IMG/VR virus record: IMGVR_UViG_3300046529_001096
Location: 1 to 37,628 of that record
Reading direction: 5' to 3' (one strand)
Length of the DNA stretch: 37,628 nucleotides
Source of the DNA: a virus
The notes below the pieces were generated by a model. That model was given only the letters and a program-made list of their open reading frames with translations, made no database searches and was not told the DNA's origin. Shown here piece by piece: positions 21,931-37,628 of the stretch. The position numbers and the translations under genes were made by a program. Every line of letters begins with the position of its first letter. The first letter of the stretch is position 1.

Positions 21931-22106
21931 GTCATGAAGAACAATTCGCTCTGGGCATCGTGCTCGAGTGCCCCGACGACGGCTTCGGCGTACCCCATGT
22001 TCAGGACACCGGGTTGCACCTGAAAGCCACCTGCTCCACATGCGGACGGTATCTGAAGTTCGTCCCTAGGAAAAGTGAATGGTTATCGCTGAGCAAGCAG
22101 AGTTGA
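21927..22106 (+). CDS. Small zinc-binding-type protein between SSB and primase, 59 aa
   Basis: The frame contains HLKATCSTCGRYLKFVPRKS, the H...C-x2-CG-YLKFV pattern of small phage proteins with a zinc knuckle; a further Cys (LEC) lies upstream. The frame is open from CTG 21927, which overlaps the SSB stop as CTGA and would read MSHEEQFALG; the first canonical start is GTG 21960 (48 aa). It ends at TGA 22104-22106, overlapping the next gene by 28 nt. Role unknown; the location suggests replication. Confidence 0.55.
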   Translation: MSHEEQFALGIVLECPDDGFGVPHVQDTGLHLKATCSTCGRYLKFVPRKSEWLSLSKQS

Positions 22107-24316
22107 TCGTCCCCGTCGTCGTCTTCGAGGACAAAAACGACACTCAGCCACGGCCGTATCACGTGCCGTGGCCGTCGCTTGCCCAGCGTCTGTGTACGTA
22201 CGACGAACGATCGTCAAAAGATGGCCGCGCGTGGTCACCGGTGACGTACCGGCCGGGCACCACCCGCGGCAAGGCCAACGTCGACCAGGTCCACGCGCTG
22301 GTGCTGGACGTCGACCATCAGGCGTTGCCGCTCGATCTGCTCGAAGGCCTGGAGTACACCGCGCACACGACCTTCAGTCACTCCGCGAGTGATCCCCGCT
22401 GGCGGGTCATCCTGCCGCTGGCCAGCTCTGTCGATGGCTCGGACTGGCCGGCGTTCTGGCTCAGGGCCAACGCCCACTTCGGTGGGTGTGTGGACCCGGC
22501 CACCAAAGACAGCTCGAGGATTTTTTACCTGCCCAGTTGCCAGCCCGGCGGGTTGCACGAGGTCAGGCAGCAGCACGGCACGTTCCTCGAGTCGACCAGT
22601 CTGCCAGACATCCCCCGCTACGAACCGTCTGGTCAGCCCGTGGTTATCAGGCGACTCAAGGTGGCTGCCCCGAACTATCTGCATGGCTGGGCCGAACGGT
22701 TCGCTGAATCGAAAGTCGACGACCTCGCGGGGATGCACAGGGACACCGGGCGTAACACCGCGTGCAATCGCACGGCCTACCTGCTGGGAGGTCTGGCGGC
22801 CGACGACCAGCACGGGCTGGACGTGCAGTGGATCGTGGGCGCCCTGTACACGGCGTGCCAGCGCAACGGCCTGGTCGAGGACGACGGCCAGCGCAGTGTC
22901 GAGGCCACGATCAGAAGTGGTCTGGAAGCTGGCCTGGCCCGAGCCTGGAGTCCCGCGGATCAGGAAGAGATACGTCCCACTCCGCGGTCCAGAACCAACG
23001 GCCACGTCGAACAGGTCGCACCACCGGATGGACCACGGTTGTCGATCGTGCGCATGTCCGACGTCCGACCAGAGCCCATCGAGTGGTTGTGGCGCGGACG
23101 ACTGGCGCGTGGAAAAGCCACCCTACTGATGGGTGATCCTGGTCTGGGAAAATCGCTGATCAGTCACTGGGTGTGTGCCATCTGTTCACGGGGTGGTGAC
23201 TGGCCCGACGGTGGGAAGTGTGACCAGGGCACGGCCATCCTGTTCACCATCGAGGATGGCCTCGAGGACACGGTGGCGCCCAGGCTGTTGGCGGCCGACG
23301 CGAACATGGATAACGTCATCGCTGTCCGCGGGGTCATTGCTGAAGACACCACGTTGCCCGAGCGGATGTTCGCCCTCACCGAGCACATCGCCCAACTCGA
23401 GGCGCTCATCGTCGAAACCCGAGCCATCGTGGTGGTGATGGATCCCATCAGCGCGTATCTGGGGCCAGACGTCAACAGCCACCGTGAAAGCGACGTGCGT
23501 GCCGTGCTGGGGCCGTTGCAGCTCATGGCCGAGCGCACCCGTGTGGTGCTGGTGATGCTGATGCACCTGAACAAGGGCACCGGCGTCAGCGCGCTGTACC
23601 GCGCCACGGGCTCGATCGCGTTTCCCGCGGTGGCGCGCGTCGTCCTAGGCGTGGCGCCCGATCCCAATGATGACGACGGCAAGCGTCGGCTGTTGTTGCC
23701 GGTCAAGATGAACATTGGCCGCGGAGGGGAGGGTATTGGCTATCGCATCGAGACGGCGCCGCACACGTCGGTCTTGCCCAAAGCGGACGCCGAGGACCAG
23801 CCGCCGGTGCTGATCTGGGATCTCGAGCCGGTCACCATCGACGCGACGTCAGCCATGGATCGCAATGGTTCACCGGCGGAGATGAGCGCGCTCGAGGAAA
23901 CCAAGCAGGCGCTCATACAAATTCTGATCGAAGGCCGAGTACTGGCTGCCGACTGCAAACGTCAACTACGCGAGGCGGTGGGTGGCGCAAGCGAAACCAC
24001 CGTAGCCAGAGCGAGAAAAGAACTCGGCGTACGTGTTCGCAAAGACGGCTTCCAGGGTGCCTGGTGGTGGGAATTAAACAAAGAATCCTCGCGCACGCGT
24101 ACACATTCTTTGGATTCTTTGGAATCTTTAGTGTCTTTGGATTCTTTGAAAGAACCCAAAGATTCCAAAGATTCCAAAGACACTAAAGATTCCAAAGAAT
24201 GGATGGATGGGAAGCACGCGCGCGCGTGTGCAGATCGCTGTCGCCGCTGTGGTCGGGAAGAGGAGTTGCACGGCGCCCGGGACCCGATCAGTTGCCAGTG
24301 GGAGGACGACGCATGA
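22079..24316 (+). CDS. Primase-polymerase/helicase fusion, 745 aa
   Basis: Replicative enzyme. N-terminal half (1-230) looks like an archaeo-eukaryotic primase/PrimPol domain: VLDVDH (Asp78 and Asp80, metal ligands) and SASDPRWRVILPLA. Residues about 230-330 are a helical linker. A RepA/DnaB-like RecA ATPase follows: Walker A GDPGLGKS (352-359), Walker B VVVMDPIS (Asp455), then LMHLNKG. A winged-helix-like segment (about 595-660) precedes a repeat-encoded SLD/KDS stretch and a Cys pair (CRRCG). ATG 22079 has AGGAAAA upstream. It should prime and unwind phage DNA. Confidence 0.82.
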   Translation: MVIAEQAELIVPVVVFEDKNDTQPRPYHVPWPSLAQRLCTYDERSSKDGRAWSPVTYRPGTTRGKANVDQVHALVLDVDHQALPLDLLEGLEYTAHTTFSHSASDPRWRVILPLASSVDGSDWPAFWLRANAHFGGCVDPATKDSSRIFYLPSCQPGGLHEVRQQHGTFLESTSLPDIPRYEPSGQPVVIRRLKVAAPNYLHGWAERFAESKVDDLAGMHRDTGRNTACNRTAYLLGGLAADDQHGLDVQWIVGALYTACQRNGLVEDDGQRSVEATIRSGLEAGLARAWSPADQEEIRPTPRSRTNGHVEQVAPPDGPRLSIVRMSDVRPEPIEWLWRGRLARGKATLLMGDPGLGKSLISHWVCAICSRGGDWPDGGKCDQGTAILFTIEDGLEDTVAPRLLAADANMDNVIAVRGVIAEDTTLPERMFALTEHIAQLEALIVETRAIVVVMDPISAYLGPDVNSHRESDVRAVLGPLQLMAERTRVVLVMLMHLNKGTGVSALYRATGSIAFPAVARVVLGVAPDPNDDDGKRRLLLPVKMNIGRGGEGIGYRIETAPHTSVLPKADAEDQPPVLIWDLEPVTIDATSAMDRNGSPAEMSALEETKQALIQILIEGRVLAADCKRQLREAVGGASETTVARARKELGVRVRKDGFQGAWWWELNKESSRTRTHSLDSLESLVSLDSLKEPKDSKDSKDTKDSKEWMDGKHARACADRCRRCGREEELHGARDPISCQWEDDA
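24105..24200. repeat. Palindromic 9-bp minisatellite inside the primase-helicase gene
   Basis: Five units of type ATTCTTTGG (24105-24149) are followed by five units of type AAAGATTCC (24158-24200), one arm the reverse complement of the other. 24114-24140 pairs perfectly with 24174-24200 (27 bp); the next nine positions pair at seven. It is AT-rich in a GC-rich genome and encodes repeated SLD/SLE/SLV then KDS/KDT triplets. Confidence 0.95.
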
Positions 24317-36100: not shown

Positions 36101-37628
36101 GTGCTCAGCACCGTGGCCAGAAGCGGTGAGACCACGGGCATCGTGCGGTCAGCCGGTGCTGGCGCCGAGGTCGCCGCGCCATCCGCTGCCACCGTGGCGC
36201 GTATGCCCAACATCGCCAAGCTGGCGCCAGAGATGCCCGAGGTGGCAGCGTCGCTGCAGCGCGTGGCCGAAGAGAACCCGCAGCTCATGGACGCGTACAC
36301 CCAGGGGCGGATCACCCATCAGCAGCTCGTCGAAGACCTGGCCCCCAAACTGGGCATGACCGCCGCCGAGTTTCAGAGGTCACCGATCGGCAAGGCGTAC
36401 AACCCCGAGGAATTGCTGACGCTGCGCGCGGCGGTCGTCCAGAAGCAGGTGCAGGCCGCGCAGATGGCCGCCAAGATCGCGGCCAAAGGTGGGGTCGAGG
36501 CGCTGACGCCGACGGAGAAGGCCGAGTACATCGCCCAGATCGTGGATGCCGCGCGGCTACAGGCGGTCGGTCGGGGCGCCGCGGCGACGGCTGGGCGGAC
36601 GCTGAACCAGCAGAAAATCGTCATCAATCAGGAGATGGCCCAGGCCATCACCGGTGGGAACGAGGCCCGCGCGGCCAAGGCGGCGGCGGATGCGGCGGAG
36701 GCGCGCCTGGCTCGAGCGCAGAAGCTAGCCGCCAACAATACGCAACTAGCCACCGAGAAGGCGAATGCGGTCAAAGCCGCACAACGGATCACCTCCGAGG
36801 CCCGTGTCGCCCGGCCGGCCACCACTCCTCAGACCAGCACGCTCCTGGACAAGATTGCGAAGGCGTACGACGACCTGGCCGCGTACCACGCCATGTCGAT
36901 CGACGAGAAGGGCGCTGATCTGGCATCACGGGATGCCCAGCGGGTGGCGGCAGCAGCCAAACGCGCCGAGGCCTTGAAGAACACCAGCGCGCCTCAGGAA
37001 TTGCTGGATGCGCTGAACAACGAGCTCGCCGCTGAACGCGGCTATTTCAAGACCACCAAGGCGGCGGGCGACAAAACCGCCGCGGATGCCGCCAGGCGGC
37101 TCGAGGGCCTGAGGCAAGCCGGCGTGGACAAGCCCGGTTCGAGGAATGGGCCGGTGGCGTGGCTCGACGCACAGGCCCAGAATGCTCGGCGGGACGCGAA
37201 CCTGGCCAACCGGCGTAGCGCGGCAGCGTTCGACGCCCAGTCACGGGTTGCCTCGCGCCAGACCGAGCAGGCGGCGCGATTGCTTGAGAAGATGGGCGGG
37301 AAAGCCGTGACCGACGACGTGCTGAAACAGTTTGTCGCGGCTCAGCAGTCGGGCAATCCTCTGGCGGCGGCGAAGTTCCTGCAGAGCTTGCAGCACGTCA
37401 GTTGGTGGGACCGCATCAGCATGTTGCGCTACGCCAGCATGCTCAGCGCGACCACCACGCACCTGACGAATGCCCTGGGCAACACCATCCAGGGCGGCCT
37501 CGACGTGGGCCTGAAGCCGCTGGCGGTCGGCATCGACGCCGCACGCGCGGCGGTCACCGGTGGCCCGCGCACGCGCTACATGGGCGAGATCGCGCCCCAG
37601 TTACGGGGTATGGCGGAAGGGGCCGTGC
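33137..37628 (+). CDS. Giant internal virion / ejection protein, N-terminal 1,455+ residues (continues at position 1)
   Basis: Open from GTG 33137 (GGCGGGG about 8 nt upstream) to the end of the window. The frame continues exactly at position 1 of the circle and stops at 1656, giving about 2,006 aa. Order: Pro-rich N-terminus (1-160); lysozyme/transglycosylase-like domain (about 178-290) with candidate catalytic Glu208 in AMSEGG followed by SFGPFQLHYGD; C39-like papain-fold peptidase (about 325-460) with Gln332, Cys338 (ACGPAAA) and His421 (GHYFYV); two SH3-like repeats (about 810-910); long Ala-rich helical region (about 1000-1430); conserved C-terminal part. A linker motif of type SDxLTNP occurs six times. 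By analogy with T7 gp16 it would be ejected with the DNA and cut peptidoglycan; that role is inferred. It follows the portal and two Ala/Gln-rich proteins, as ejection proteins do. The enzyme assignments are motif-based. Confidence 0.85.
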   Translation, partial: MPVNFALTPDQVNGFQADQWAQKANAAVADAWQAQQVANLQPIPVPPPPDLNAPTPSDSLTQPMQAAPQPAPLVGTVPEGTPSTDASVAPPVATSAPPPVTAPLVFPGAPPPTQQPIAPTPPPSPDETISNPFGEAFRQLQGITQPQAPPPPPPAVTWSAPTGSDTLTNPIQTQANQASGGDLESIVRDSAARYGIDPDTAVRVAMSEGGLSEGARPGDSGSSFGPFQLHYGDVASGGNAVSGLGDAFTAATGLDARDPNNAAAAIDYALSNVAKSGWGAFHGAARVGIGPMDGIGGRPSNLAPTPSDALTNPLGNGPAARTSQFGLGLSAQAAYAACGPAAAIAFANTYGRYPTPNEAMQLAAAPDVGWTSAQGMAGISSEQALLGKMGIPTKLESTVDWNHVAQDAANGNPVILDTPGHYFYVSGVRQGQNGLEFNVGTSGTDLRQGSQWMSQAQINGSGMGSVRAALYADNPTSATPSVAAPAQPPTPGPAQRAAQWMTKANLVAGVTPQTDETISNPFGEALRQAGDIAGGIGQTVGNAASSVGSAVHTALGPQPLAAAQQPTPSDTLTNPTLSTVPPADRSTVPSTPGATEGPIPPGIPIVSGAGNLAANAINTVGDAVKSNIQNDPSLPAVALRALAGGESSTAIQRDLMAKYGTWIPDDRFTPEDRERAGNLVMLIGGMELGGGKEAVDALGNKIAPLEEQAAQMAGRTLESGAGLLGLGRPAGAVADVAGANRAPPAVIAEAQRIVDSSAPEDVPHKPWAEDVLAQDAAAPAAPGGAGPAAPIRASEQGAATTPAVTPAAPPQLAPGQAVAWVDPVLGGHNTGTIFGEHANDWVVEQNGKLVRVPKDSDIRPISEKVQRGLEVGDTVTGQNLRGEPVQGTIVQDGGANHWLVQRPDGTTEVTTKVSTNSAGTAAERTAARTAVAPTVEPTPTAPSTTATNALDHLVPPGAKASPVEQALDRGLIVPRETGPVQILGPRGEVLSTVARSGETTGIVRSAGAGAEVAAPSAATVARMPNIAKLAPEMPEVAASLQRVAEENPQLMDAYTQGRITHQQLVEDLAPKLGMTAAEFQRSPIGKAYNPEELLTLRAAVVQKQVQAAQMAAKIAAKGGVEALTPTEKAEYIAQIVDAARLQAVGRGAAATAGRTLNQQKIVINQEMAQAITGGNEARAAKAAADAAEARLARAQKLAANNTQLATEKANAVKAAQRITSEARVARPATTPQTSTLLDKIAKAYDDLAAYHAMSIDEKGADLASRDAQRVAAAAKRAEALKNTSAPQELLDALNNELAAERGYFKTTKAAGDKTAADAARRLEGLRQAGVDKPGSRNGPVAWLDAQAQNARRDANLANRRSAAAFDAQSRVASRQTEQAARLLEKMGGKAVTDDVLKQFVAAQQSGNPLAAAKFLQSLQHVSWWDRISMLRYASMLSATTTHLTNALGNTIQGGLDVGLKPLAVGIDAARAAVTGGPRTRYMGEIAPQLRGMAEGAV
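37502..37628. repeat. Direct terminal repeat, right copy
   Basis: Second copy of the 127-base terminal repeat. Removing it leaves a unit circle of 37,501 bp. Confidence 0.95.

Follow-up and report, generated by a model that had tools for sequence, protein, structure and literature searches.

A 9-bp repeat array within a viral primase-helicase gene as a putative iteron-type replication origin for the encoded protein

Initiation in the plasmid RSF1010 uses iterons and hairpins, and its RepA protein is a RecA-like hexameric helicase. In other elements the origin adjoins the gene of the protein that reads it. The Rep protein of SaPI reads iterons directly downstream of its own gene with its C-terminal domain (PMC7581432), and pRN1 depends on a stem-loop of 100 nt that lies downstream of the gene for its primase-helicase; the structure of this stem-loop is conserved but its sequence is not (PMC4234260). 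Origins can also lie inside genes, as for lambda, with its ori in gene O, and for TP901-1 and Tuc2009, with theirs in rep (PMC7157519, PMC8965321). For AAA_25 proteins, no description of such arrays was found in the open-licence literature searched. Here we analyze a repeat array in the gene of an AAA_25 protein from a 37,628-bp IMG/VR virus record, the whole of which we call the window. Both ends of the window carry the same 127-bp direct repeat (1-127 and 37502-37628), which makes it probable that this is a complete, circular-mapping genome. From sequence comparisons, we consider it likely that the array serves as a replication origin of the iteron type, to which the winged helix-turn-helix (wHTH) domain of its own primase-helicase binds.

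The protein has 745 residues, and AAA_25 is its sole Pfam match above cut-off. The AlphaFold model of the N-terminal 314 residues is moderate (pLDDT 67), with the cyanophage S-2L PrimPol, an AEP primase, as its best PDB match (6zp9, E 3e-3, prob 0.99). The modelled wHTH matches PadR/ArsR/MarR-type winged helices in the PDB, and by this model the primase-helicase has a DNA-binding domain suited to reading repeats. The SLD/KDS linker that follows is poorly modelled by AlphaFold, and the protein ends in a Cys-rich tail that is also found in three relatives (L093, L095, and L101). The features of the locus are as follows.

22079-24316, + strand: primase-helicase gene, 745 aa (ORF; Pfam AAA_25, E 2e-28; PHROG DNA primase/helicase families)
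22079-23020, + strand: tentative N-terminal AEP/PrimPol-like primase region (AlphaFold pLDDT 67; PDB 6zp9; PHROG 9765 DNA primase)
23051-23581, + strand: AAA_25 RecA-like helicase domain (Pfam match, residues 325-501)
23873-24076, + strand: wHTH domain (AlphaFold H-H-H-E-E, block pLDDT 93-97)
23993-24025, + strand: predicted recognition helix ETTVARARKEL (model helix 60-70; its N-terminal part covaries with the repeat unit, 25 loci)
24087-24104, no strand: left CG-rich flank CCTCGCGCACGCGTACAC (sequence)
24105-24148, + strand: left arm of the candidate iteron array, unit CTTTGGATT, coding for SLD/SLE (Tandem Repeats Finder, inverted-repeat search, sequence)
24156-24198, + strand: right arm of the candidate iteron array, inverted unit AATCCAAAG, coding for KDS (Tandem Repeats Finder, inverted-repeat search, sequence)
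24214-24231, no strand: near-palindromic (CG)n tract GCACGCGCGCGCGTGTGC (sequence)
24227-24313, + strand: Cys-rich C-terminal tail CADRCRRCGREE...C, possibly zinc-binding (sequence; AlphaFold gives no confident model)

The arms (24105-24198) lie in frame within the ORF, between the wHTH and the Cys-rich tail. With a period of 9, Tandem Repeats Finder reports 4.9 copies at 24105-24148 and 4.8 copies at 24156-24198, and the inverted arms (24114-24151 and 24163-24200) are 38 nt each and 95% complementary. At 0.34, versus 0.64 for the gene, the GC content of the array is below that of any other 96-bp segment of the contig. These values confirm the original prediction of an AT-rich repeat with mirror arms in a GC-rich gene; the perfect pairing it described is also real, except that the longest unbroken Watson-Crick helix (24114-24141 with 24173-24200) has 28 bp and not 27. 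Likewise, the Ser-Leu-acid repeat on one side and the Lys-Asp-Ser repeat on the other are borne out by the reading frame, SLD SLE SLV SLD SLK / PKD SKD SKD TKD SKE. The folding z of the array is -9.5 as RNA and -9.9 as DNA, and none of 200 shuffles was as stable. A (CG)4 or longer tract stands beside the array in all seven close loci (7/7); tracts of 8-12 bp adjoin it in the window and in L093-L097, L101, L117, and L130. The steepest GC-skew step of the contig also falls at the array (around 24300; +0.06 before and -0.12 after, over 6 kb). Nine relatives examined lack such a step, and GC skew was rejected as an origin marker because the sign changes at the array in the window only.

Is it the DNA or the peptide that is repeated? 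The codons of the array are rare for the phage (TCT is 4% of Ser; GC3 0.31 vs 0.82), with a codon log-likelihood of -56.6; synonymous recodings have -31.9 ± 3.2, and the lowest value among 500 of them is -44.9. In addition, 70 of the 96 bases are self-paired, against a mean of 44 and a maximum of 58 for 500 synonymous recodings. Given these rare codons, and given that none of the 500 recodings pairs as well, it is the DNA rather than the peptide that is repeated and kept. In L093, a single unit is read in two frames (KAS and GFK). The best reading of these sequences is that the tripeptide repeats are a by-product of an origin absorbed into the gene.

Close relatives keep the inverted-repeat layout with different sequences. 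L093 (64% identity) has the units CTTTGAACC / AAGGCTTCA, and in L094, L095, L096, and L101 the segment from the wHTH to the C-terminal tail contains AT-rich inverted stretches of other sequence; by the de novo score given below, the arrays of L094-L096 are weak. Relatives devoid of repeats or pairing, which according to the original prediction would speak against it, are therefore not what we found among the close relatives. In L097 (40% identity; an Actinomycetota assembly, and the single relative found by scans of genome contigs), the protein stops right after the wHTH and the array lies 3' of the stop codon, with an overlapping frame that is open across the array despite that codon. The array is similarly non-coding and past the stop in L112, L113, L117, L121, L122, L126, L129, L130, and L131; it straddles the stop codon in L162 and L165, and it lies inside the ORF in the window, L093-L096, L101, L136, and L200. 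In the last of these (2115-2442 of L200, from the Actinomycetota genome G349), several copies of TTAAGGATGCCA are translated as an IKDA-rich tail, and both the recognition helix and the unit match those of L136. A search of viral contigs for the exact unit (CCAAAGATTCCAAAGA) gave 89 stretches, mostly GC-poor and lacking the layout of an inverted array plus a CG tract, which we treated as chance matches.

We retrieved more distant relatives, from viral contigs and Actinomycetota genomes, with the ATPase core, and found repeated units after the wHTH codons, mostly in non-coding DNA. We scored arrays de novo by the best 9-mer (both strands, one mismatch allowed), taking dinucleotide shuffles as the reference; the region of 500 bp that follows the wHTH was compared with equal stretches inside the gene and downstream. 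Arrays with z ≥ 3 followed the wHTH in 24/45 loci of the first set, versus 1/45 inside the gene and 3/41 downstream. A further 48 loci, all new and retrieved once the hypothesis had been formed, made up the second set; here the counts were 25/48 versus 4/44 and 4/46 for the control stretches, or 21/48 versus 1/44 and 2/46 at z ≥ 5. Multiple short repeats are found at a constant place adjoining the gene of the presumed initiator, and by this comparison the repeat of the window is not a lone minisatellite. About half of the relatives have no significant array by the de novo score in the 500 bp after the wHTH; some of these sub-threshold loci carry visibly degenerate arrays and others may have none. 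The 50-bp stretch richest in AT lies after the wHTH in 25 of the 49 loci that carry arrays, where 5.7 are expected, and the AT-rich stretch that an iteron origin needs as its unwinding element is present.

Both site orientations occur in 46 of the 47 arrays, and the most frequent same-strand spacing is 9 bp. We claim the presence of both orientations alone, having rejected an organization in orientation blocks (194 runs vs 207 expected, i.e. near random). The order and spacing of the sites vary between loci, and for 39 of the 47 arrays folding is more stable than in shuffles (z < -3). This fold-back arises largely because the sites occur in both orientations, and the pairing itself therefore may or may not matter. 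Two other observations were made in relatives. On the Pseudomonas plasmid pBYT1-1 (L105, 2819-5592), the gene of a short AAA_25 protein neighbors those of a TnsA-like endonuclease and a DDE transposase, which suggests a different use of the AAA_25 domain, in a Tn7-like element. In L187, VSAG-type motifs recur in an open frame of 1820 aa on the minus strand, approximately 3.8-9.3 kb past the array.

The units differ between lineages, yet many can be aligned to a core, TTGNNCANCTT. This core scored above the 95% null in 23 of 26 training arrays, which include the loci where it was first spotted by eye, and in 12 of 25 held-out arrays. An earlier core motif, YCTTNG, had z values of 5.5-7.2 in the viral sets, was weak in Actinomycetota (z 1.8), and was replaced by a profile. 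With the ATPase core allowed for, similarity between units correlates with similarity between recognition helices (partial Mantel r 0.39, p 0.0005); in a sliding control the correlation is strongest from helix position -8 to +3 and disappears over the wing. The strongest single position is the residue before the helix threonine (helix position -1), where Arg goes with G at motif position 4. This pairing was seen in 6/6 versus 5/17 training loci (p 0.005) and in 3/3 versus 0/8 held-out loci (p 0.006; the pairs include two close relatives, L247 and L248). All the nominal p-values given here are optimistic, since the loci are related and not independent. Several non-Arg loci of the training set also have G, and the window itself (Thr with G) breaks the rule. 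In a few loci (e.g. L101, L170, and L266), automatic assignment did not pick out the true helix. The sequence of the repeat thus appears matched to the DNA-binding domain of the putative initiator, a relationship that is correlative only.

Among the functions proposed in the original prediction, the origin is well supported by comparison, given the position of the array, its lineage-specific repeat units, their covariation with the wHTH, and the AT-rich stretch. We infer the following steps of binding, melting, self-loading, and initiation. Each 9-bp unit would serve as a half-site, recognized by the winged helix at the C-terminus of the primase-helicase encoded there. Binding of several copies in both orientations could bring hexamers face to face over AT-rich, fold-back-capable DNA, which they would melt; the RecA-like helicase ring would be loaded without a separate loader, and the fused primase would start synthesis. 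The commoner layout among the relatives is an array just 3' of the gene. In the clade of the window, the stop codon lies past the array, which is thus translated as a presumably disordered SLD/KDS linker to the Cys-rich tail.

An operator, or an autoregulatory or incompatibility array, through which the wHTH controls expression or copy number while initiation takes place elsewhere, would fit the same covariation and position data, and plasmid iterons can serve both control and initiation. We nevertheless regard it as unlikely, as the array lies at the 3' end of the gene or past it, not at a promoter, and coincides with an AT-rich stretch. The position near the boundary between early and late genes could also suggest a packaging (pac/cos) or partition site, since the terminase genes, as judged from ORF translations, start about 1.1 kb downstream in the window. 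However, going by names drawn from translations, the downstream neighbors in relatives vary (integrase, methyltransferase, serine recombinase) and the terminase is 3-6 kb away or not found, whereas the helicase is the constant neighbor and the unit covaries with the helix of the helicase protein. The packaging site was rejected on account of these variable neighbors, and the explanation as a whole is very improbable.

A neutral coding minisatellite, grown by slippage and inversion into a tripeptide linker, would account for 9-bp units that stay in frame and for the low-confidence model of the linker, as expected of a disordered stretch. This explanation is already disfavored, and we give it hardly any weight: arrays recur at the same place in the non-coding DNA of distant relatives, L093 uses one unit in two frames, the unit covaries with the wHTH, and nine pairs of near-identical contigs (98.7-100%), all relatives of the window, show no indels over the arrays. 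The same nine pairs, in which the number of units does not vary, lend no support to the length-variable hot spot that had been suggested. As for an RNA hairpin acting on the mRNA (in processing, stability, or termination), the RNA folding z of the window and the number of arrays that fold better than shuffles would agree with it, but fold-back follows from sites in two orientations. The original prediction listed such an element, and it is now most unlikely, because the order, spacing, and arrangement of the units differ between loci, and because the array precedes the stop codon in some relatives, where it is coding, and follows it in others, where it is not.

An iteron-type origin remains our preferred reading, and it would provide a testable origin for these replicons, predict which protein reads which repeat, and account for the low-complexity tripeptide tails of these proteins, which would be translated origins. 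Such a short, self-contained stretch, holding both a protein and its origin, would also form a compact replicon module. We also favor, with less assurance, a broader proposal: that a single polypeptide with an AEP-like primase, an AAA_25 RecA-type helicase, and a wHTH follows a partly readable helix-to-base code in reading its own lineage-specific TTGNNCANCTT-type iterons, which lie where its own gene ends (3'), that these systems form a large, undescribed family of phage and mobile-element replicons, and that in some clades the origin has been absorbed into the frame as tripeptide repeats.

Compared with known systems, the window resembles SaPI Rep/ori and SCCmec Cch2 in its arrangement, as these have a self-loading helicase whose C-terminal domain reads short iterons directly 3' of the gene (PMC7581432), self-loading and binding being inferred here. 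Their helicases are of the DUF927 or D5/Primase_Cterm types, whereas that of the window is a RecA-like AAA_25 protein, and the array here has inverted arms and can be inside the ORF. Since AAA_25 is the only Pfam match above cut-off, the window system, by analogy, would work like SaPI rep/ori but is not a member of it. With the pRN1 ORF904 origin and the suggested origin of phage BIP-1, it shares a primase-helicase-wHTH fusion, an origin (a candidate one here) just 3' of the gene, and fold-back DNA that is conserved though its sequence is not; ORF904 is an SF3 helicase, not AAA_25, and the part of that account used here describes no lineage-specific iteron array tied to a recognition helix (PMC4234260).

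As in lambda O and TP901-1/Tuc2009, where the protein binds repeats within its own gene and these act as the origin, the repeats of the window are within the gene. Those proteins are replisome organizers, in contrast to an AAA_25 helicase with a primase-like N-terminus, and the repeats here are in a 3' extension of the gene and outside it in many relatives. BstA/aba, likewise a DNA element in a phage gene, resembles the window in no other respect. RSF1010 RepA is a RecA-like helicase similar to that of the window, but RSF1010 uses three separate proteins (RepA, RepB', and RepC) with oriV and longer iterons, whereas primase, helicase, and iteron-reading domain are apparently one chain here. The closest systems also include the F13 phage, whose GP46 is an AAA_25-like helicase (PMC8965321). 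The locus differs from these systems in its helicase family and in having the array absorbed into the ORF.
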